28,024 bases of DNA from a virus. Numbering within the stretch: the stretch's first letter is position 1; every line of letters starts with the position of its first letter. Shown here piece by piece: positions 1,274 to 12,000 of this stretch. The translations under genes and the position numbers were made by a program. The notes under the pieces are model-generated. The model was not told where the DNA came from, did not search any database, and was given only the letters and a program-made list of their open reading frames with translations. The stretch spans positions 1-28,024 of the IMG/VR virus record IMGVR_UViG_3300035670_001036; one strand, 5' to 3'.

Positions 1274-2626
1274 TTACGATAAGGTGAATGTTCCAGAGGA
1301 ACGCACAACTGTGACGTTTCCAAGGTCATCCGCAACTTTGACGTATAAGTAGTTGGCAGTTAAACCGGTTTGTGTAGCGGTTGTTCCACCGACGGCACTG
1401 ATAGCAGCTTTTTTAGTTGCTGCAGCGTATGCAGTATCAAATCCAACGAGTGTTTGTTTGACAGTAGCAGTCGCTGAATAAAAGTATGCAGAAGCTTTAA
1501 GGGTTCGTCCAGTAGCAAGTGCAACAGTAATAACTGGAGCAGCAGTTCCACTTTGAACGTTAAGCGTTGCAGTTGGTTTCAAACGTGAACCAGGAGCAAG
1601 AATTTTGGTCGTGACTTCAGCAACTTGTGGGACAGTGAATCCAGATTTGACTAAGAATACGTTGCCTTTTGGATAGAAAACTTCGAAACCCATACGGCAG
1701 TCTGGTTGGATTAAAATACCTTGAGCGGCGATTGCATCGACAATCTTGATATTTTCTTCTAACGCAATACCACGAGCATTGGCCATAGGCGAAGAGATAT
1801 AACCATAAACATCATCAAGTTCTCCAGCTGGGAAACCGAGATATTTTTCGGCTAATTGCCACACTAAGTCAGCAGCCATATAAACAGGGACTGCATCAAC
1901 TACACCGATAAAACCATTACGTTGGTCACGAGCTGAACCAGTATCAAGAGTTCCTTTTGCAAGAATATCTTGAGCATAGTTAGAACCACCAACAAAAATG
2001 TTATTGGCTTTGAAGAAATATGGACGAAGCATCGTGCGAATAACAGCAACACGACCTTCTAATGGGAACATATCAACTGCGTTATCAACATCACCTTGGT
2101 CTAATTTAGCATTAGCTTCAATGAATTTGTCACGTAAGTGAGTAGCATCTGTTGACGCTAAATCAACTTCAACTAATTGAGACGCAATTAAGGATTTTGC
2201 AACTTTACCAGCAATTGTCATTGCGTTAATGTTGCGATAAACTAATTGTGAATAGTGTTTAGTTTCTTCTTCTAAAAGATTGACAGGAATCATGTCTTTC
2301 GTAGTATTACGAATAGCGATTGGTTTGTCAATGATAGTTAATACATCTAAACCATATTCAATGGTCGAAGGAGCTTCAAAACCTTCTGGGAATGGAAGAC
2401 CGTTGTGGTCTGCACCATAAGAACGAGCTTCTTGAGTAAGCGGTAAAACACGAAGAACGTTAATGCGACCGCCTTTAGTATCTTTCGCAAAACGTTGTGT
2501 GACACCTTCGCCATCATTTTCGATAATGTTTTGTGCGACTGTGCGTAAGATTTCGTTCGTTAAAATTAAACGAGCATGAACTGAATTGATAAACGGTTGT
2601 CCGTAATCACTTAAAAAGTTTGGCAT
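1274..2626 (-). CDS. Major capsid protein with C-terminal Ig-like extension
   Basis: The product has 450 residues and is the likely shell subunit, by position after portal, minor head and scaffold-like genes and by size. The first 345 residues have the mixed helix and strand character of an HK97-fold capsid protein (for example ARLILTNEILRTVAQNIIEN, then ITIAGK-type helices). From about residue 346 the sequence turns into a Thr/Ala/Val-rich all-beta stretch ending LTANYLYVKVADDLGNVTVV, typical of Ig-like or FN3-like virion surface domains. The start is fixed by AGGAGGAAAATAACGT before ATG; that site overlaps the stop of the gene before. Codon use here is less AT-rich than in the flanking genes, as expected for a highly expressed gene. 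Confidence 0.8.
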   Translation of the reverse strand: MPNFLSDYGQPFINSVHARLILTNEILRTVAQNIIENDGEGVTQRFAKDTKGGRINVLRVLPLTQEARSYGADHNGLPFPEGFEAPSTIEYGLDVLTIIDKPIAIRNTTKDMIPVNLLEEETKHYSQLVYRNINAMTIAGKVAKSLIASQLVEVDLASTDATHLRDKFIEANAKLDQGDVDNAVDMFPLEGRVAVIRTMLRPYFFKANNIFVGGSNYAQDILAKGTLDTGSARDQRNGFIGVVDAVPVYMAADLVWQLAEKYLGFPAGELDDVYGYISSPMANARGIALEENIKIVDAIAAQGILIQPDCRMGFEVFYPKGNVFLVKSGFTVPQVAEVTTKILAPGSRLKPTATLNVQSGTAAPVITVALATGRTLKASAYFYSATATVKQTLVGFDTAYAAATKKAAISAVGGTTATQTGLTANYLYVKVADDLGNVTVVRSSGTFTLS

Positions 2627-2640
2627 ACGTTATTTTCCTC

Positions 2641-3195
2641 CTAGTAGCCACCGAGTTTTTTGGCTAACATATCGGTGATGTTAGGTTCAGACTCAACCAT
2701 TTTTCCGGGCTTGCCTTTTTGCCCAACCGATTCGTCTTCTTTTTCAGCTTCTTCTTCGCTTATCGGTTCGCGAATTGCGACTCCTTCCAGCATTTTCTTA
2801 ATAGCTTCAATTGATTCGCGTAATGAAGAGATTTCGTTTTGAATTCCAATCATTGCTTCATCGTGTTGAGTATTTTGTAATTCTGGTTCTGCAGCTACAG
2901 CTTCTAAATCTTCTGGCAGAGGCATTTGTTCAGGAGCAGGCATATTTTCTTCCGCTTCAACTGGCATTTCTTCTGCAGGCATTTCTTTTGCTGGCGGCAT
3001 AGGAGCTTCGATTCCAGCTTCAGCTTCTAGAGCTTGCATATCTGGACTTTCTGCTGCTTCTTCTGCTGGGGTTTCTGTTGGTTCCTCTTCGGTGGCATAC
3101 TTCCCTGCAAGTTCTGCTAGCATGGCTTTGTCTTCTTCAGAAAGTTGGTCTTCAGGTATTGAAGCCAGCGTTTCGAGAATTTGTTTCAAATCCAT
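2641..3195 (-). CDS. Scaffold-like acidic protein
   Basis: The product has 184 residues, counting from ATG at 3195 (MDLKQILETL), which has AGGAGGAAAGTT just upstream. A longer reading adds ten residues but loses the ribosome site. The protein is strongly acidic, with a central Pro/Glu/Ala-rich low-complexity part (repeats of the form MPAEEMPVEAEE), a coiled-coil segment near residues 115-140 (IGIQNEISSLRESIEAIKKMLEG) and a short basic-hydrophobic tail (ITDMLAKKLGGY). Acidic, disordered, coiled-coil proteins directly before major capsid are usually scaffolds; a short basic C-terminal helix is what often binds the shell. There is no sign of a fused protease. Confidence 0.6.
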   Translation of the reverse strand: MDLKQILETLASIPEDQLSEEDKAMLAELAGKYATEEEPTETPAEEAAESPDMQALEAEAGIEAPMPPAKEMPAEEMPVEAEENMPAPEQMPLPEDLEAVAAEPELQNTQHDEAMIGIQNEISSLRESIEAIKKMLEGVAIREPISEEEAEKEDESVGQKGKPGKMVESEPNITDMLAKKLGGY

Positions 3196-3335
3196 AACTT
3201 TCCTCCTATTGGATTTTACACTCATCGTTGTTCATCAAATCTTTCTATCCGCTCATGTCCTGAATCAAGACTTCCACGAGATTCAATAAAGGAATTTAGT
3301 GCTGTGAGTTTTAATCAACTAGTTTTGCTCACTAA
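3196..3335 (-). other. Gap between minor head and scaffold-like genes
   Basis: No gene with a start codon is visible here. In frame with the preceding minor head gene, beyond its TAG and a second TGA seven codons later, lies an open stretch of 30 codons (3225-3314) without ATG, GTG or TTG. It would read as a charged, helix-like peptide ending GHERIERFDEQR. The stretch TTAGTGAG...CTCAC..CACTAA next to the TAG can fold into a hairpin. The scaffold-like gene's ribosome site lies at the left end. Confidence 0.4.
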
Positions 3336-4409
3336 CTAGGCAACTTTTAACAACTCGTCTGGAATAGAGATACGATCAGGATAGTATGCGTGAGAATTTT
3401 CTTCGCTATACTGAATGTATGCTCTTTTCTTTTCTGCGGCTAACTTCCGCAATTCACTTGACCGTTGTGGGTCTATATCTTTCAATAAGACAGCTTCGTG
3501 TTTTAACTTGAAGATTTGTCTTTCCATTGCTCTTTGTTTAGAGCTTATTTCTCTTTCTTTTTTCAGTTCAGCATCACCATAATCAAGAGGTCTGGTGCTT
3601 CCATATGTATATTGTATCATATAATGACGACAATTATAACCGAATAAACCGTTTTTGAAAATTCTTCCTTTTTTCGTTGTAGTAAATACATCTGTAGCTT
3701 TTTCTATTGGAAAGAACTTATTTCCGTCTTGAGTTCCTGTTGTTCCATCAAGACTATATAATTTGCCTTGCCAAGGAGCACAACGTTTGCTAGCGTCTGA
3801 GTGTGTTGATACCCACACAAGCTTAGCTCCGCCTTCTTTGAATTCGTTCATAGAATCTTCGTGATATTGTTTTCTCAAACTAAGTTCTACTAGCGAACGT
3901 AAAGACAACGCGCTACGTTCTGTTCCTTCTTTGATTGCAACTTTAGCCATAGCAACAAAACCTTGTCTTAGTTTCTTGTAATAGTTAACGATTGGAATTG
4001 CACCTTTTTGAGACATCCAAGTTCCTTCGTTAGACACATCGTAAATGTTATCTATGTTAACGTTCTTTGCATTCTCTAAAAATACAGCAATAAATTCCTT
4101 AGGAGAATCTACTTTTCGTTTCAATAATTCTTTAGTAATTCTTTGAGCTTCTGGAAAACCTAAAGTGGCAGTTGATTTTATTTGCAAAAACAATCTCATC
4201 TTATATGTTCTTAATCCACGTAAGATTTCATCTCTATAATAAAATCCTTGTGGAATAGTTTTCATGAATTGTTGGATGAGTTTTTCTGATTGAACGTTAA
4301 TTGACGAAAAGTCTAAAAGCTTTAATGCCCCATTCTTAACAATCAACTTCAGTTTAGTTTCTACTTCGTTGACTGCTTTCAGTATTTCTATCTTATATTC
4401 TGGTTTCAT
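3336..4409 (-). CDS. Phage minor head protein (Phage_min_cap2 / MuF-like)
   Basis: The product has 357 residues. The core at about 200-265 reads WVSTHSDASKRCAPWQGKLYSLDG followed by GLFGYNCRHY; this pair (SxHxDAxxxCAPWQGK and G.NCRH) is the hallmark of phage minor capsid protein 2 and is related to the MuF minor head domain. The N-terminal half is helical and the C-terminus has a coiled coil (KKEREISSKQRAMERQIFKLKHEAVLLKDI in two parts). These proteins sit inside the procapsid near the portal. ATG overlaps the stop of the 32-residue gene before it (ATGA). Confidence 0.8.
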   Translation of the reverse strand: MKPEYKIEILKAVNEVETKLKLIVKNGALKLLDFSSINVQSEKLIQQFMKTIPQGFYYRDEILRGLRTYKMRLFLQIKSTATLGFPEAQRITKELLKRKVDSPKEFIAVFLENAKNVNIDNIYDVSNEGTWMSQKGAIPIVNYYKKLRQGFVAMAKVAIKEGTERSALSLRSLVELSLRKQYHEDSMNEFKEGGAKLVWVSTHSDASKRCAPWQGKLYSLDGTTGTQDGNKFFPIEKATDVFTTTKKGRIFKNGLFGYNCRHYMIQYTYGSTRPLDYGDAELKKEREISSKQRAMERQIFKLKHEAVLLKDIDPQRSSELRKLAAEKKRAYIQYSEENSHAYYPDRISIPDELLKVA

Positions 4410-4504
4410 TTTTTCTTAGGTTCTTTTACCTTTTGAGCTGTAGTCTTAAGTGGAGGCACGTTTACTTTTTTTTGAATTGGTTTTAAGTTGTTCCCGTATT
4501 CCAT
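4406..4504 (-). CDS. 32-residue protein with the YGNNLKP peptide
   Basis: This very short gene encodes MEYGNNLKPIQKKVNVPP and a Lys-rich tail ending KEPKKK. It is well supported as translated: AAGGAGATAACTAAA precedes the ATG with normal spacing, and its TGA overlaps the ATG of the minor head gene. Residues 3-9 repeat the peptide found in four proteins at 8875-10089 (YGNNLKP, YGNDLKP, HGNDLRP). Here it is attached to little more than a basic tail, so the peptide itself may be the working part. It could bring a partner to the head shell or scaffold; function is unknown. Confidence 0.7.
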   Translation of the reverse strand: MEYGNNLKPIQKKVNVPPLKTTAQKVKEPKKK

Positions 4505-4506
4505 TT

Positions 4507-4719
4507 TTAGTTATCTCCTTCCTTTTTTTTGACATAATGTTCTATGATTCTATAGAGTTCTTTTTCTCCTAGTTTTTCAAACTTTTCTTTAAGTGAATTT
4601 AGTTTTTCTTCTGTTGTCCAAATTGAAAAATCAAAAACACTCAATGCATAGATACATTTAGACGCATTCATGTCTTTTTTTATGTATTTCAATACAATTC
4701 TTTCTAAATCTCTTTTCAC
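4507..4719 (-). CDS. Small helical protein of unknown function
   Basis: The product has 70 residues, all predicted helix and rich in Lys and Glu (LNSLKEKFEKLGEKELYRIIEHYVKKKEG). The start is GTG at 4719, which overlaps the stop of the metallopeptidase-like gene (GTGA) and has AGGAGGAAAGTTT upstream. It lies between two head-region genes and is probably a minor virion or assembly factor. I recognise no family. Confidence 0.65.
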   Translation of the reverse strand: MKRDLERIVLKYIKKDMNASKCIYALSVFDFSIWTTEEKLNSLKEKFEKLGEKELYRIIEHYVKKKEGDN

Positions 4720-6929
4720 AAACTTTCCTCCTTGAGATATTTTTTATTTGTGTATTTATACAACATGAATCTTAAAAACTCATGAAGTTTATATTGTGTG
4801 TATCGCGATGGTCCATTTCCCATTCTAAACGCATCCATTCCCTTTTTTATAAGGTCATCAAAACTAGCTGTATCAAAAAAACCTCTCTTATCTAGAGAAA
4901 TTCCATCAGTAATGTTGAGAAGAGCTTCTAAAACTTGTTCTCTAACACCTGTCGTATTATAATAACTTCTATAGTGTGCACCGTATTCAAGCATATATTC
5001 GTCCCATAGTCTATAAAAGTTTTCGTTCTTATTTACTTTGAAAAAATCTTTGTATTCTCCTGTTGAAAAATCTTTCATAATTTCAATTGGTTTATAATCC
5101 CAATTATAACTTCTCTTTGAACCTAAAATGTTGGCAGGATTTCCTTGATAGTTTAATTCTTCTGATGCAAAATTGTAAAAGTCAAAACCTTTTCCTTTTG
5201 TGATTCTATCAATATACCAATCACCAAGTTGTTCAATAGAATTGATGTTGTGTTTTTTCAAAAATCCACTTTCGTCTAATATTGGTAAAATACTAGTAAA
5301 AAATTCTAAATACGATAAACTGCTTTTTTCTAAATTATTTAAGTCTGGATGAATGTCTTTCATTGCTTTTGCAACAGAAATGGTGGCAGCTGTGTTAAAC
5401 ACTTCCATAAAAGCAATGTGGTCTTCGTTGAAACCACCTCTTCCTCCATCTTTTCCGTATTCTTCAAACGTGTGGTCTGGTGCCATCCAATTATAACTAT
5501 TAACGTTCATATTATGAAGCATTTCGTGAATTGTCGTTCCTAATACTTTTTTTCTATTTAATCCGTGGTCTGCAAATGCTTTTGTGTTAAAATTCAATCC
5601 TTCGTTTTTATACGCCTGATGTTTGGTTCTTAATTGCCATTGACTAGCTACGTTTGAAGCGAGAGCGCCTTGTCGAGCACTCACGAAATTCAACTTCACC
5701 TTTTCTCCTTGCATTTTCAAAATATCTTTCACTATTTTTTTCATACCTACGACTAATTCATCGAACGAAAACCATCCATTAGACGATATTGCTTCATTAT
5801 CTGTTGGAGCCATTTTTAAGTGTTTCTTAAATAAATCCATAAATGTTTTTTTAGTAGTAGCAACATCTTTGAAGTATTTTTGATTGTAAGGAAGTTTCAC
5901 AAAGTTTTCTTGAATTTTTTTTCTTCTTGCAAGAAGATGTCGTCTAACAATGGGTTTCATCTGTTCTTTTTTCATATATTTAGTTTGTTCAACTTTTTGA
6001 GTTTCTGGATTGACAGTGAATTCCACAAAATCATCTGCGACATAAAAAGTTCTATACTTATATTCATCTTTCAAAACTGGTTTAGCATAAAGTTTTTTAA
6101 GATTTCCTGTTTTTTCATCGTAAATCTCTATTGTTTCATTTTCTCTAAAAAAAGTTTCCTTCAAATCTATAAACACTGGTTTTGATGAATCTCCAGCTGC
6201 ATTCACTTGTTTTAACATTCCTGGGTATTGTTGTATGGACATCACTGCTTTATCTAAGTTGAAAGCTGGATGTCTTGGGTCGTCAGCATTAGATTTCTTA
6301 CGACTTCCTCCGAAGTATTCGTTATCTATTTTAATAAAACTAATTTCTCCAGGATTGATTGAATAACTTCTTTGAAAATCAGTATGTGCAAGTTGATTTT
6401 CTATATTATATTCAGCTTTAACCTTAAATGGAAAAGTAGCGCTCTCTTGTCTTTGGTTAGCTATTTTTTCGTATTTAGAATAAACACGTGATGCTTCATT
6501 TGAAGCAAATGTTTCGTCTACACTACTTCCTGGAATGTTTTTGAAAGCTGATTCTATTAGTGGTCTAATTCCTTGATAAATAGTATCATCACCCTTTAGT
6601 TTAATGTTTCCATCATCGTCTACAAATTCTATTTCAGGGAAAGTGAAATTATTTTTGACAGGATTATAAAATTTGTTAGTCATTCCAGACGCTCTAAAAG
6701 CTTCTTTCAAAATGTTTTGCAAATCTTCTAAATCTGTTTCAGCTTCTCCTTTTTCGTTAACTTTTAATTTTCTAGAAGGAACTAAAACTGAGTTAAAATA
6801 ACCATGAGTTGGTTTTTGTGTTTTTTCGTCAAAAAACCAATCGTGATTTTTTTCATAAGAATTAGGTTTTCCAGCTGAAGTCTTATAAGGACTATTGCCT
6901 TTTTGAATAAAGTCTGAAGGCAGTTTCAT
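4716..6929 (-). CDS. Large head-region protein with HExxH zinc-metallopeptidase motif
   Basis: The product has 737 residues and is encoded between portal and minor head protein. Residues 468-472 read HEMLH inside TTIHEMLHNMNVNSYNW, a classic zinc-binding HExxH motif. Acidic residues follow at about 502 and 509 (NEDHIAFMEVF) that could give a third ligand, as in gluzincin peptidases. The N-terminal 400 residues are mixed strand and helix with no recognised domain. Size and place fit a protein packed in the head or bound at the portal, which might be ejected with DNA or cut proteins during assembly. ATG overlaps the portal stop (ATGA). Protease activity is inferred from the motif only. Confidence 0.6.
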   Translation of the reverse strand: MKLPSDFIQKGNSPYKTSAGKPNSYEKNHDWFFDEKTQKPTHGYFNSVLVPSRKLKVNEKGEAETDLEDLQNILKEAFRASGMTNKFYNPVKNNFTFPEIEFVDDDGNIKLKGDDTIYQGIRPLIESAFKNIPGSSVDETFASNEASRVYSKYEKIANQRQESATFPFKVKAEYNIENQLAHTDFQRSYSINPGEISFIKIDNEYFGGSRKKSNADDPRHPAFNLDKAVMSIQQYPGMLKQVNAAGDSSKPVFIDLKETFFRENETIEIYDEKTGNLKKLYAKPVLKDEYKYRTFYVADDFVEFTVNPETQKVEQTKYMKKEQMKPIVRRHLLARRKKIQENFVKLPYNQKYFKDVATTKKTFMDLFKKHLKMAPTDNEAISSNGWFSFDELVVGMKKIVKDILKMQGEKVKLNFVSARQGALASNVASQWQLRTKHQAYKNEGLNFNTKAFADHGLNRKKVLGTTIHEMLHNMNVNSYNWMAPDHTFEEYGKDGGRGGFNEDHIAFMEVFNTAATISVAKAMKDIHPDLNNLEKSSLSYLEFFTSILPILDESGFLKKHNINSIEQLGDWYIDRITKGKGFDFYNFASEELNYQGNPANILGSKRSYNWDYKPIEIMKDFSTGEYKDFFKVNKNENFYRLWDEYMLEYGAHYRSYYNTTGVREQVLEALLNITDGISLDKRGFFDTASFDDLIKKGMDAFRMGNGPSRYTQYKLHEFLRFMLYKYTNKKYLKEESL

Positions 6930-8590
6930 AACTCACCTTCAGGAGTTCCTTCCATAGGACCACCTTGCATCATCATGGCTTCCTGCATTTGTTTCATCTT
7001 GTCTTGTTGAATTTTCTCATAAGCTTCTTTGACTTGTTCTTCGTCTGCATCATACATCCATTCTTTTAATGCATCAAACTCACTAATGAGTCCTGCTTGT
7101 TTTTCCATTGTAATTCTTTGAAGAAGTTCGTTTGTATTGATAACACCTTCTTTGGAAAACTTAATTTCCACATCGTCTGGAAGCTTATAAAAATCTTTGA
7201 CACACTTAAGCATTTTGTTGATTGGTTTTTCTGCGACAGAACGACTAATTTCAATAAATGATACAGAGTTGCTATCTTCAGACGAGACTTGCGTTGCTGT
7301 TTTTAATCCACCTGCACCTAAGAAACTGGCGATTGTGCGAGGAGATAGTTGTAAAGTCATTGCGATATTTTCGATAAGATAGTCTCGTATTTGTGCCCAT
7401 TCTTGTGAACGTAAATTGAATTGAACTTGCTCAATCATTTGTTTTTCTTGACTTGTTGTTTCATAAGTCATAAACATAGATTCATCTAAACCTAAAAATG
7501 GATTTCTATCTGTAATGTTCGAAGCACTGTATTTGTTTTGTGCCATAAACTTAGGCATCAATACGATACCTTTACCTTGATACATATCTCTAAAGAAATA
7601 AGAGAACGCGATGTCATAACCCATCAAATACGATACAATGTTTTCTAACATCGATAATCCAAAAGGAGTGTTAGGTAGGCTGATATTCCCATCATCAGAC
7701 GTCATTAGGTATGCACCAAGTGAGTTCTTGAATGGCAATTCTTGTTCTTTTCCTATCTCGATGATAGAATAGTCCTTTTTGATAGCGTCTCTTACTTTTT
7801 TAGGAATTGAATCCCAGGCGATAGTTTGTTTAACGTCAGTGCTATATGTATTATTGTTGAGAATGTTTCCTGCATACTTATGAACTTGATATACGATATG
7901 TGGAACTTGAACTACTTCATCATAAGATTCTAATTGATTGTTGACGTTTCGTCTGAATTTAGTTTCTCGTTGATATTTGAAAAAACGCTTTTCAACTAAA
8001 TAAAAGTTAGATGTTTCTCCATTTTTAGACACATCTGTATAACCTTTTAGTAAGCACACAACTTCTTTTATATCATTACGAGCATCGACTTCGAAATAAA
8101 AATAATCTAATCGAATAGCTTCAACCCACAATTCATCATGATTAGCAATGTTGAGTTTTAACAAAGAAGTTCCTAAAGCTTTAGAAAACTTAATGGCTCG
8201 TTTGCATTCTGTTTGAAAGTTTGAATTCTTCGACCATTTAGACATAAACTTTAGCGAATTATTGTCTACGTTTTTGTCTTTTTCAGAACCAACGTTTCTA
8301 AATAATAATTCACGACCAAAAACTGATTCACCAACAGAATTGATTAAAGAGTTAGCAAAACGAGTGCTAAAAATACCATTTGTTTCTTTGTGAAAAGTAG
8401 GAACATAACCATCTAACCATTGAGCTAATCTACGAACGTTATTATAGTAATATGTATAATAAGTTGGATTGACTAAGGTATAAAAGCCTGCGTTGTTAAT
8501 CCACGAATATGTTTCGTTAACGATGACTGACGATGTTTTCTGAGTTTGTGGAAACTCTTTCGTCAGAACGTTTAATTCTGTGTCTGGCAT
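6926..8590 (-). CDS. Portal protein (SPP1 gp6-like type)
   Basis: The product has 554 residues, a normal portal length. It lies downstream of terminase and upstream of the minor head and capsid genes. Features seen in portals include an aromatic N-terminal region (NPTYYTYYYNNVRRLAQWLDG), a strand-rich wing (DYFYFEVDARNDIKEVVCLLKGYTD), long crown helices near 420-530 (RSQEWAQIRDYLIENIAMTL and VEIKFSKEGVINTNELLQRI), and a Met/Gly/Gln-rich disordered tail (MQGGPMEGTPEGEL). It should form the dodecameric DNA channel at one vertex. AAAAAGGAGGTCTAA gives a strong ribosome site before ATG 8590. Family call is from layout and general character. Confidence 0.75.
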   Translation of the reverse strand: MPDTELNVLTKEFPQTQKTSSVIVNETYSWINNAGFYTLVNPTYYTYYYNNVRRLAQWLDGYVPTFHKETNGIFSTRFANSLINSVGESVFGRELLFRNVGSEKDKNVDNNSLKFMSKWSKNSNFQTECKRAIKFSKALGTSLLKLNIANHDELWVEAIRLDYFYFEVDARNDIKEVVCLLKGYTDVSKNGETSNFYLVEKRFFKYQRETKFRRNVNNQLESYDEVVQVPHIVYQVHKYAGNILNNNTYSTDVKQTIAWDSIPKKVRDAIKKDYSIIEIGKEQELPFKNSLGAYLMTSDDGNISLPNTPFGLSMLENIVSYLMGYDIAFSYFFRDMYQGKGIVLMPKFMAQNKYSASNITDRNPFLGLDESMFMTYETTSQEKQMIEQVQFNLRSQEWAQIRDYLIENIAMTLQLSPRTIASFLGAGGLKTATQVSSEDSNSVSFIEISRSVAEKPINKMLKCVKDFYKLPDDVEIKFSKEGVINTNELLQRITMEKQAGLISEFDALKEWMYDADEEQVKEAYEKIQQDKMKQMQEAMMMQGGPMEGTPEGEL

Positions 8591-8603
8591 TTAGACCTCC
8601 TTT

Positions 8604-8867
8604 TTAGTCTTCTTTTTTGAGAATCTTAGCTTGTTCGATAAGTGCATTAATTTTCTTTTGTTGTTCTTCTGTCAATCCTGCTTTAACAGCAATTTCAATG
8701 TCGATAATCGAAGTCATCATGTTATTAAGCAAAGTCAGTGTGTCATTCATAAATCGATATACGATTTGAAATTGTTCTGCTTTGTTTAATTTTCTAACGT
8801 CTACTTCCCCTACGCGCATTTGAAGAGATTTCAATTCAATTGTCGCTTGTTCTGTTTTGTTTTCCAT
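8604..8867 (-). CDS. Small helical protein upstream of portal
   Basis: The product has 87 residues and is nearly all helical, with two amphipathic segments (KLNKAEQFQIVYRFMNDTLTLLNNMM and LTEEQQKKINALIEQAKILKK). It starts seven bases after the stop of a YGNNLKP-peptide gene and lacks that peptide. The upstream ribosome site is weak (AAAGGTAAATAAAAC). It is probably an oligomeric head-assembly or internal protein. No family is recognised. Confidence 0.65.
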   Translation of the reverse strand: MENKTEQATIELKSLQMRVGEVDVRKLNKAEQFQIVYRFMNDTLTLLNNMMTSIIDIEIAVKAGLTEEQQKKINALIEQAKILKKED

Positions 8868-8874
8868 GTTTTAT

Positions 8875-9201
8875 TTACCTTTTATTTTTTGGAGTATAAT
8901 TCAAAAGTTGTCTTATTTCGTTTAACCTTTTATCATCTATTTGTGGTGTTTTTCCTAAAATTCTTTCTTCTGCATCGAAACTATTTTGATCGTTAGGAAT
9001 GTAGTTATATTTATTTCCAGAAAAATAACCTTTATTTCCCAAAACTTCTAATACTTGATTAAAGTCTGGTTCAAGAAGACTATCAGAATCGTCATAATCA
9101 CTTAACATTTGTGTAAAGAATTTCATAAAGCTATTCGGACTCATTCCTAAATGTTTAGGATTTTTATTTATAGTAGGCTTTAAGTTATTACCGTAATCCA
9201 T
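8875..9201 (-). CDS. YGNNLKP-peptide protein, fourth gene of the set
   Basis: The product has 108 residues. YGNNLKP occupies residues 3-9, right after the start (MDYGNNLKPTINKN). The rest is hydrophilic, with an acidic middle (DYDDSDSLLEPDFNQVLEVLG) and a basic end. ATG comes one base after the preceding TAA and has no clear ribosome site, so its translation likely depends on ribosomes ending the previous gene. Outside the peptide it shows little likeness to its three neighbours. That pattern suggests a shared docking or targeting tag on different cargo proteins. Function unknown. Confidence 0.7.
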   Translation of the reverse strand: MDYGNNLKPTINKNPKHLGMSPNSFMKFFTQMLSDYDDSDSLLEPDFNQVLEVLGNKGYFSGNKYNYIPNDQNSFDAEERILGKTPQIDDKRLNEIRQLLNYTPKNKR

Positions 9202-9202
9202 G

Positions 9203-9478
9203 TTATTTACGTAAATCTAAACCCATCATTTTAGCTAATTGTTGAATGAATTTAGATTGTGCAATTTCGTATTGAACTGGACCTGCTTCTGTGTTTTTAG
9301 GAATAGGTGCAGATTTTATAATGTCTTGAAGTTTCTTATATTCAGAAATTAAGTAATCGTTGATGTCAAAACTATTTTGAGTCATTTTTGGTTTTAAGTC
9401 ATTACCATACTCTTCTTGTTCTGACTTTTCTTGTAAGTAAGACAAGTCTTCTGGGTTTAAAGGTTCTTTGATTGCCAT
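9203..9478 (-). CDS. YGNDLKP-peptide protein, third gene of the set
   Basis: The product has 91 residues. Here the shared peptide is internal, at residues 24-30 (EEYGNDLKPKMTQNSFD), after an acidic leader rich in Glu and Leu. The C-terminal half is helical (AQSKFIQQLAKMMGLDLRK). ATG 9478 has GGAGGCAAATAGT upstream, and there is no Met near the peptide to support a shorter form. The stop lies one base before the next ATG. It is a probable minor virion or internal protein by position. Confidence 0.7.
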   Translation of the reverse strand: MAIKEPLNPEDLSYLQEKSEQEEYGNDLKPKMTQNSFDINDYLISEYKKLQDIIKSAPIPKNTEAGPVQYEIAQSKFIQQLAKMMGLDLRK

Positions 9479-9479
9479 A

Positions 9480-9797
9480 CTATTTGCCTCCAGTTTTTTG
9501 TAATGTTTTTAGAAATGAATTTTTCCAAAAGTCACGCATATAATTATCGTCGAATCCATATTTTTTTTGCATTTGGTCATAAAGGTCTTGGCCTACGTTG
9601 TATGTTTCTTCGTCATAGTCTTCGTATTCCATCAATTTAGAAAGCATTTGAGGATTAGAACCATATTGCTTCATTAAAAGATTAAAAAATTCATCTGTAG
9701 CTTTATTTGCTTTTTGTTGGTCGTAAGGTTTAATAGGTTCTGCTTCTAAAGCTGGATGAGTTGTATAAGTCGGTCTTAAATCATTACCGTGTTTCAA
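9480..9797 (-). CDS. HGNDLRP-peptide protein with TTG start
   Basis: The product has 105 residues and starts at TTG 9797, supported by CAGGAGTAAAATAAC just upstream; no ATG competes. Residues 3-9 are HGNDLRP, the most diverged form of the shared peptide. The remainder is acidic and aromatic (YEDYDEETYNVGQDLYDQMQKKYGF) and probably helical. The previous stop lies one base before its start. The unusual start codon may lower its yield compared with the neighbouring genes. Confidence 0.7.
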   Translation of the reverse strand: MKHGNDLRPTYTTHPALEAEPIKPYDQQKANKATDEFFNLLMKQYGSNPQMLSKLMEYEDYDEETYNVGQDLYDQMQKKYGFDDNYMRDFWKNSFLKTLQKTGGK

Positions 9798-9798
9798 G

Positions 9799-10089
9799 TT
9801 ATTTTACTCCTGGTTTTTTAGCTCTTTCGTATGGTCCATATAGTTTTTGTAATTCTTCGTATTTTTTCATAATATCAAAATATGTGCTTTGGTCTAAACC
9901 AGACATAAGTCGAGCATTTGGGTCATACATGTTGAATTTTCCACCGTATTGAACATTACGAAATTTGTCGAATTGTTCTTTAGTAATTTGCGGCTTCAAA
10001 TCATTACCATACTTCATTGCTCGTTCTTCAGGCGTAGTCATGTTTAACATAGTGTCTTTTTTTACTTCGTCCATGAAATCGTCGTTCAT
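9799..10089 (-). CDS. YGNDLKP-peptide protein, first gene of the set
   Basis: The product has 96 residues, with the peptide at 27-33 (MKYGNDLKPQITKEQFDKF) after a Met/Asp-rich leader. It is the first gene after the promoter that overlaps the end of the large terminase gene, and AAGGAGGATTTTCA gives it a strong ribosome site. The C-terminal part is rich in Tyr, Lys and Glu (YFDIMKKYEELQKLYGPYE). Met at residue 25 could in principle give a shorter form starting MKYGNDLKP, like the two neighbours where the peptide is N-terminal, but no ribosome site was noted for it. Confidence 0.7.
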   Translation of the reverse strand: MNDDFMDEVKKDTMLNMTTPEERAMKYGNDLKPQITKEQFDKFRNVQYGGKFNMYDPNARLMSGLDQSTYFDIMKKYEELQKLYGPYERAKKPGVK

Positions 10090-10121
10090 TGAAAATCCTC
10101 CTTAGGGCTCAACTTGATTTT

Positions 10122-10150
10122 ATTATAACACACATTCTAAAATGTGTCAT
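10122..10150 (-). promoter_or_regulatory. Promoter with embedded dyad at the end of terL
   Basis: On the minus strand ATGACA (10145-10150), a 17-base spacer and TATAAT (10122-10127) preceded by TGT form an extended -10 promoter. The spacer holds a perfect dyad, ACACATT-TTAG-AATGTGT (10130-10147), that could bind a regulator. It overlaps the large terminase stop codon and faces the head genes beginning at 10089. Confidence 0.6.
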
Positions 10151-11597
10151 AAAAAGTTTCTCTATTCTCGTTGTAAATGCTCAGTATGCGTAAAGCGTGT
10201 GGATTTCTAAATACTTGATTCACTGCATAAGTGAAGGCATCAGATGCGTCATTAGGAACAGATGAGTCATAACCTGTTTGTTTTTCGTTCCATATTAGGT
10301 TTTCTAATGCTACTACAAGTGGATGTGTATCGTTTACAAAATCATTAGTCGTCCAATTACGATAACCATCAAAATCCATAACGTATACCATATTACGAGC
10401 TAACGCGTCTTGCACAATACCGACCATGTCTAATATCGTTTGTTTGCCATATTCATACACATCGATTGATTGGTCTAATGTGTAGCGTAAGACACGTATA
10501 AGTTCAGTTGAAGCACTATCAATACTGAAGATGATAGGTTTCTGTTGCGAAAGAAGCAAATATCGTTTGTCAAGATAGTGAAGCCAACGTGTAATGTGTG
10601 GCAGTAGTTCCATCGAGCTCTTCTGTCCTGACTTCTGTGGGTCATAATAGAAAGGTTCTAATGCGACCATCTGACCGTTAGCCATCAATGCCATAGGTAT
10701 GAACACTGTTGCGTCATGCGTAACGGCACCATCTCCACCTATGATAACTGCTTGAATGCGTTGACCAAATCGTATGGCTTTAACTTCGTCTGTGAGGTTT
10801 AGTCCTTCTGTCATACCAAATCTTTCTAACAGTGTAGTATATTTAATGAAGTGTTTGTCGCGTTTGAATTGTGGATAGATTGAGCCAAAACCTCCACCTG
10901 TCTTACCTAAATACATCCATTCATAACGTAATGGGTCGTATACTTTCATCTTAAGTATTTCTTTTAAGTCTACGTCATTAAGGTATTTCACAATGTCAGT
11001 GTAGTCGCTATAGATACATAACCAATCAGTGTCTCGTTTTCTGACATTCCAATAGATATTTACCCAATGTGAATTCTGAGAAGGTGGGTTGAAGAGGTGG
11101 ATGAACATACCTTTGTCAATATCTAAGTGTCTTCGAAAAGTAGCGTGTGCTTGTTCTAAAGACTCTTGGTCTCGTGTTTGTTGTAGCTCTTCGAACACAA
11201 CAGCAATGAGTGGATTATGTGGTCTGAATGAGTGAGTGCGATGAATATCAGAACCACCAATACCTAAGAAATAAATATGACTATGTGTTCGAGTGTTTGT
11301 AATATGTAGTGGTGCTGTGCGAAATTCGAATTCTGCTTCAAGTCCGTTATCACCTATAAACTTCTGAAATTCTGTGAAAGCTGAGTTCTGTAAGTCGCTA
11401 TAGCTATCACGAGCTATAACTATATCACGTTCAGGAAAACTCATCGACATAATGACACACATCTGCGCACTGAATGTAGATTTACCTGATGCACGTCCAC
11501 CTTTGATGAGCACGAACCGCTTAGAGAATTCTAAGATGGGTGAGAAAGGTTTAGCGACTTCTAATTTCATCTTCGAGTTTTTGCAATCGATCGCCAT
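10137..11597 (-). CDS. terL: Terminase large subunit
   Basis: This is the DNA-packaging motor. Walker A is GGRASGKST (24-32 residues after ATG 11597 or slightly later), Walker B with catalytic Glu is IAVVFEEL about 100 residues on, and the RNase H-like nuclease is marked by GGDGAVTHD, FSIDSAS and the C-terminal NDASDAFTYA. Length, about 486 residues, is normal. Possible starts are ATG 11597, ATG 11570 (MKLEVAKPF) and TTG 11615; none has a clear ribosome site, and all overlap the small subunit gene, so translation is probably coupled. It binds the portal and small subunit to cut and pump DNA. Confidence 0.92.
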   Translation of the reverse strand: MAIDCKNSKMKLEVAKPFSPILEFSKRFVLIKGGRASGKSTFSAQMCVIMSMSFPERDIVIARDSYSDLQNSAFTEFQKFIGDNGLEAEFEFRTAPLHITNTRTHSHIYFLGIGGSDIHRTHSFRPHNPLIAVVFEELQQTRDQESLEQAHATFRRHLDIDKGMFIHLFNPPSQNSHWVNIYWNVRKRDTDWLCIYSDYTDIVKYLNDVDLKEILKMKVYDPLRYEWMYLGKTGGGFGSIYPQFKRDKHFIKYTTLLERFGMTEGLNLTDEVKAIRFGQRIQAVIIGGDGAVTHDATVFIPMALMANGQMVALEPFYYDPQKSGQKSSMELLPHITRWLHYLDKRYLLLSQQKPIIFSIDSASTELIRVLRYTLDQSIDVYEYGKQTILDMVGIVQDALARNMVYVMDFDGYRNWTTNDFVNDTHPLVVALENLIWNEKQTGYDSSVPNDASDAFTYAVNQVFRNPHALRILSIYNENRETFYDTF

Positions 11598-12000
11598 CAG
11601 TCTTGTCAGTGACAACGATTTCGATTTGTCTGATTGGCTCTTTGTTCGTAATATCTTGTTCGGTCTTGTCTTTCCAACCGAAGTTATTCTTCAACATAAA
11701 AATAATCCCTACAACATTACCTTCGAATAGGCGTTCTTCGAGATACGCTTCAATCACCGTTTTTGCTTTTTTTATCTCTTCCCTGACTATGGCGTCTCCT
11801 TCTTCTTCGAGTTTACGGAATTCGGAGCGAGAGATACCTGCATAGACACAAAGGCCAGAAATGGTGGGTTTTCTGAAGAATTTGGTTGTGAGGACATCAT
11901 TTCCTGCATCATCTTTAAGTTTTTTGCCATCGATTTCGGCAGGAACTTGTTTAGAGATTGATCGGAAATATTCGTTAAAGATTTTAGTGTATTTAGCCAA
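11551..12000 (-). CDS. terS: Terminase small subunit
   Basis: The product has 149 residues. The start is TTG at 12000, with AGAAGGAGTGATTC in the right place and no competing ATG. A helix-turn-helix lies near residues 45-75 (TISGLCVYAGISRSEFRKLEEE), then a helical oligomerisation part, then FEGNVVGIIFMLKNNFGWKDKTE, a phrase widely found in small terminases. It should recognise the packaging site and load the large subunit. The C-terminus is charged and probably binds the motor. The 3' end overlaps the start of terL. Confidence 0.85.
   Translation of the reverse strand: MAKYTKIFNEYFRSISKQVPAEIDGKKLKDDAGNDVLTTKFFRKPTISGLCVYAGISRSEFRKLEEEGDAIVREEIKKAKTVIEAYLEERLFEGNVVGIIFMLKNNFGWKDKTEQDITNKEPIRQIEIVVTDKTDGDRLQKLEDEIRSR

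Follow-up and report, generated by a model that had tools for sequence, protein, structure and literature searches.

A peptide shared by five small proteins in the head module of a phage is a candidate docking tag

Why should five small proteins, encoded around the portal and minor head genes of one phage and mostly unlike one another, carry nearly the same seven-residue peptide near their N-termini? We addressed this question in a 28,024-base IMG/VR record (the whole of which is called the window below) that is classed as linear and is probably a fragment. The head module spans window positions 1274-11615 and has every gene on the minus strand, in the order TerL, t96, t105, t91, t108, g87, portal, p737, g70, t32, minor head protein, scaffold and MCP (Table 1). 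A preliminary description of this DNA had placed the peptide genes around the portal and minor head genes, and the arrangement is as described: four of them lie between TerL and portal, and the fifth overlaps the minor head gene. The scaffold is assigned by position, and the MCP by position together with homology to the gene in the same place in relatives; the MCP has no PHROG match and no credible Pfam match, and its AlphaFold model (pLDDT 38) is unusable. The presumed MCP (window 1274-2626) falls in a family common to five relatives (L065, L066, L124, L126 and L128; about 30-34% identity), possibly an undescribed one.

A six-frame search of the window with the regular expression YGN[DN]L[KR]P returned four matches, all on the minus strand, with first bases at 4498, 9195, 9409 and 10011. 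The exact spelling is YGN[DN]LKP in four small head-module proteins and HGNDLRP in a fifth (first base 9791). The peptide had been reported as YGN(D/N)L(K/R)P in five proteins, which is right for four copies; the fifth needs a pattern with [YH] at position 1. Residue positions given for the five copies (repeated in Table 1) are all correct, with TTG needed as the start codon for that of the t105 copy. Across six frames the window contains no GN[DN]L outside these five copies of what we call the tag. M-[DEK] stands directly before it in four copies, with t105 using TTG as its start. The tag of t96 follows a 26-residue N-terminal extension, with Met25 two residues ahead of it (MKYGN); since this Met is internal, the motif may formerly have stood at the extreme N-terminus. 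Codon usage in the frame of each of the five ORFs is coding-like, and a clear ribosome-binding sequence precedes each of them except t108. The smallest protein, t32, is the tag with a 23-residue basic tail and little else.

Table 1. Coordinates of the tag copies, their genes and other head-module features in the window
Feature	Position	Strand	Basis
Tag copy YGNDLKP, t96 residues 27-33	9991..10011	-	six-frame regex
t96, 96 aa	9799..10089	-	coding-like codon usage; SD AAGGAGG
Tag copy HGNDLRP, t105 residues 3-9	9771..9791	-	six-frame GN[DN]L search
t105, 105 aa, TTG start after AGGAG	9480..9797	-	coding-like codon usage
Tag copy YGNDLKP, t91 residues 24-30	9389..9409	-	six-frame regex
t91, 91 aa	9203..9478	-	ORF; coding-like codon usage
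Tag copy YGNNLKP, t108 residues 3-9	9175..9195	-	six-frame regex
t108, 108 aa	8875..9201	-	ORF; coding-like codon usage
Tag copy YGNNLKP, t32 residues 3-9	4478..4498	-	six-frame regex
t32, 32 aa, pI 10.2	4406..4504	-	coding-like codon usage
Terminase large subunit (TerL)	10137..11615	-	similarity
Portal protein	6926..8590	-	phrog_533, E 9e-33
Minor head protein, Phage_min_cap2/MuF-like, without tag	3336..4409	-	PF06152 E 4e-23; phrog_581 E 2e-25
g87, without tag	8604..8867	-	possible homologue of L066 118-aa gene
p737, 737-aa orphan with HEMLHNM (HExxH), without tag	4716..6929	-	no family match
Promoter-like site ATGACA-17-TATAAT with TG extension	10122..10150	-	sigma-70-like consensus match only
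18-bp palindrome ACACATT-N4-AATGTGT	10130..10147	.	only perfect copy in window

The tag is a real feature, far above chance. Significance was assessed on a hand-made list of 47 genes. With no preset motif, the best seven-residue block in the first 40 residues of these genes scores 146, compared with a mean of 83.5 (sd 3.7) and a maximum of 97 for shuffled N-termini (n=200), which places the real block about 17 sd out. PSSM scores are 23.6-25.0 for the five tag proteins and 8.1 for the next best among the listed proteins. For [YH]GN[DN]L[KR]P, a motif chosen after the fact, five occurrences in the window proteome compare with 8e-5 expected. When one mismatch is allowed, 7-mers recur in four proteins versus at most three in shuffles; two mismatches give six proteins versus four to five, an excess kept small by the abundance of K, N and L in the proteome.

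Conservation of the tag is seen in the peptide and not in the DNA that encodes it. Codons for the same residue are identical between copies in 26 of 56 pairs, and 25.7 would be expected from codon usage alone; third positions thus vary as the preliminary description had said, and do so at the level that codon usage predicts. Since codon identity is that of independent draws, the copies would be either old or of independent origin at the DNA level, and the peptide appears to have been kept or acquired by selection.

The arrangement of the tag genes points to expression with the head genes. Intervals of 1, 1 and 1 nt separate t96, t105, t91 and t108, and the overlap between t32 and the minor head gene, which is 4 nt long, suggests translational coupling. 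The promoter-like site at the TerL/t96 junction heads the tag operon and is the best sigma-70-like match in the window; promoter-like sites in the tag region are no more numerous than in shuffles. Inside this site, and over the TerL stop codon, sits the 18-bp palindrome, a possible operator. Between the tag genes and portal, no terminator-like site was found on the minus strand. With a promoter-like site ahead and no terminator-like site before portal, the four tag genes are likely to be driven together with portal.

Relatives of this phage were found through a TerL DNA pattern and a portal alignment, and several of them are near-duplicates. They have about 30-37% identity in TerL and portal, and in all of them these two genes are adjacent or less than 500 bases apart. 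The examined stretches of the relatives, some of which are short, contain no tag, no p737 and no homologue of the minor head protein. Absence of the peptide from related phages had been proposed as a refutation of its role; the peptide is indeed absent, but the genes that would carry it are absent too, so the comparison returns no verdict on conservation, and the tag has no cross-phage conservation to rest on. Some phages with related portal and MCP proteins have no tag genes, so the tag system would be dispensable for that type of head.

Wider searches gave a similar picture. DNA patterns for the tag, which required a TTA leucine codon or the preceding Met codon and therefore missed other codon spellings, returned 0 and 4 matches in 2.9 million viral contigs and 62 matches, one per stretch, in 84,980 genomes (one per species). 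All were judged to be chance matches because six-frame translation gave no set of tagged small genes. Portal, TerL, MCP and primase were each used singly to scan the viral contigs, none of them detecting a relative; the portal search likewise came up empty in the genomes and in plasmids, and a phage collection gave neither a DNA match nor a credible tag match. When phage loci were screened de novo for other peptides recurring at N-termini, nothing tag-like emerged on co-oriented head genes, most matches being low-complexity or repeat-derived. As far as the searched collections show, the tag cassette is a lineage-specific insertion.

The simplest reading of the tag is a short linear docking motif, and its occurrence either at residue 3 or after 23-26 residues is as expected for one. 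According to this proposal, [YH]GN[DN]L[KR]P, usually after M-[DEK], would let at least five small, mostly unrelated proteins, each carrying it towards the N-terminus and probably co-expressed with head genes, dock at a single binding site. That site would lie on a component of head assembly, with portal, scaffold or the MuF-like minor head protein as the most plausible choices, and by recognising the tag it would recruit the proteins to the prohead during its growth, either as internal cargo or in association with the portal; the tag is not proposed to be cleaved. We regard such delivery through one head-assembly component as a serious possibility, if still somewhat short of probable. That the tag is a binding motif we infer from the sequence pattern, and the prohead interior as destination would be a further and more tentative step. 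A partner in the head is favoured by the placement around portal and by the overlap between t32 and the minor head gene. The tag is missing from portal, scaffold, MCP and minor head protein alike, so the sequence singles out none of them.

Other explanations account for parts of these data. Chance, or a DNA, RNA or translation-level signal that incidentally encodes the peptide, is exceedingly improbable and largely refuted already: an AT-rich, K/N/L-rich proteome does raise chance similarity, and shuffles reach five proteins at two mismatches, but none of the 200 shuffles matches the real block score. That codons agree between copies about as often as codon usage predicts speaks against an element acting as DNA or RNA, and in two genes the tag lies about 70-80 nt from the start codon, which argues against a translation signal. 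Rfam gave no match. Alternatively, the five proteins could be an old paralogous family that arose by tandem duplication, with the peptide left as the one active or binding site still conserved in a common fold. The 1-nt spacing at three successive tag-gene junctions would fit such a history, as would the weak similarity of t96 and t105 after the tag (about 50 aligned columns; p about 0.004, uncorrected, one of 10 comparisons), which hints that these two are distant paralogues. We nevertheless consider a common family improbable, given that 8 of the 10 protein pairs are without similarity outside the tag, that the alignment of t91 with t108 (p about 0.02) covers only 19 residues, which do not correspond in position, and that t32 consists of little beyond the tag. 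The earlier statement that the proteins differ outside the peptide accordingly stands for those eight pairs and is qualified by the hint of paralogy between t96 and t105.

A role as cleavage site for a maturation protease, also raised in the preliminary description, has been weakened and now seems very unlikely. The tags of T4 internal proteins are cleaved by gp21 (PMC9026906), and the HExxH protein p737, encoded in the same operon between portal and the minor head gene, is a possible metallopeptidase (cargo or processing enzyme) that might perform such a cleavage; yet no prohead protease was recognised when ten head-module proteins were searched against PHROG and Pfam, no T4-type (I/L)xE site common to the tags can be read beside them, and MCP and scaffold lack the peptide. 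As for p737 itself, it has no PHROG, Pfam, NCBIfam or phage match, and its AlphaFold model (pLDDT 34) is unusable. The main rival to docking on a head component is that these are accessory (moron) proteins that were added to the late operon under a promoter of their own and never enter the head. Inside the infected cell, their tag would dock them to a shared partner outside the capsid, be it a host factor, a phage hub protein or each other. We retain this as a close rival because SPP1 has extra ORFs at similar positions, some of them called morons (PMC6316719). Compatible with it are the promoter-like site and operator-like palindrome directly upstream of t96, as well as the lack of the cassette in the relatives found, in which little or nothing separates TerL from portal. 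The promoter of the tag set, however, is a consensus match only, the terminator-like site of a moron cassette is missing after the four genes, which would place their expression with that of the structural genes, and the fifth tag copy overlaps the minor head gene. Overall, we consider the moron explanation somewhat unlikely.

How does docking on a head component compare with known ways of loading proteins into phage heads? The internal proteins of T4 have only a capsid targeting sequence (CTS) in common (PMC3012670; PMC9026906), which acts on the scaffolding core and is cleaved by gp21 (PMC9026906). Like the CTS of IPI-IPIII, the tag is a short near-N-terminal peptide on small, otherwise unlike proteins, and just as the CTS serves different cargo, the tag stands on differing proteins. 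Whereas the CTS is at the extreme N-terminus, only three of five tags are so placed, those of t91 and t96 lying 23-26 residues in, and the gp21-type protease and shared (I/L)xE site of the T4 system have no recognised counterpart here. The resemblance to T4 noted earlier thus extends to a shared peptide on unlike proteins, and does not extend to location in two copies or to cleavage, for which reasons we do not file the tag as a CTS.

In phage P1, DarB carries an N-terminal packaging signal, the first 30 residues of which suffice for a reporter, and the N-termini of Dar proteins have no consensus (PMC9024508). The tag resembles the DarB signal in being N-terminal, and DarB is one of several co-packaged accessory proteins; unlike the Dar proteins, the tag proteins have a plain N-terminal consensus. 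SPP1 gp7 enters the procapsid by portal binding (PMC6316719). This MuF protein is thus a portal-bound head-module protein taken into the procapsid, with the same gene neighbourhood as the tag genes, but it is one protein of larger size, 308 aa, and the window's own MuF-like protein lacks the tag. The four tag proteins of 91-108 aa have no credible Pfam/PHROG match to a MuF/Phage_min_cap2 domain, and t32 is too short for one. PMC6316719 describes SPP1 ORFs 3-5 and 8-10 as interrupting the usual gene order and lists those before portal as moron genes; these resemble the tag genes in their small size and in their location, some lying between terminase and portal and others past the minor head gene. 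The cited passages mention no shared peptide, in a comparison with the tag proteins that is by description only. Family 1 encapsulin targeting peptides, which are usually C-terminal (PMC10960027), offer the parallel of a short cargo peptide that a single site on an HK97-fold shell recognises; they belong to a cellular compartment, and no sequence relation to the tag is implied.

The tag is real and unusual, and is best placed with the short peptides already known to target or dock proteins in phage heads. It is possible, though doubtful enough to be put forward only tentatively, that it represents a multi-cargo capsid-loading tag of a small phage that has a head of the scaffold type and no recognised prohead protease, and in which one peptide, one head component and swappable cargo would form a system unrelated to the T4 and P1 signals. 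If cargo loading is what the tag does, it would be a very short signal that could be moved between proteins to direct them into a phage head, it would provide a sequence handle for finding which small function-unassigned proteins travel with phage DNA, and T4-style multi-cargo targeting would have arisen in a scaffold-type head without a recognised protease. If the moron explanation is true instead, the locus would still be a clean case of one docking motif common to a set of accessory proteins.

Several minor observations concern the tag proteins and their neighbours. Pediocin-like bacteriocins also begin with YGN (YGNGV), and a bacteriocin reading of the tag was rejected because the tag proteins contain no cysteines. 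Three YG or HG elements occur in each of t96 and t105. A similarity of t105 residues 78-90 to the presumed scaffold of relative L066 (3575-4108, minus strand; KYGFD.N.M..F, p 0.026) was set aside. The 118-aa gene that L066 has between TerL and portal (6304-6660, minus strand) scores 55 against g87, compared with a mean of 30 and a maximum of 58 in shuffles, and the two may be homologous. The gene after portal has a similar opening, GG..QQ.YD...G.YG.G, in L066 (4227-4586, minus strand) and in L122 (from 3699), and the L066 protein further contains a DEEEAI...DEREH region that looks ferritin-like by eye.
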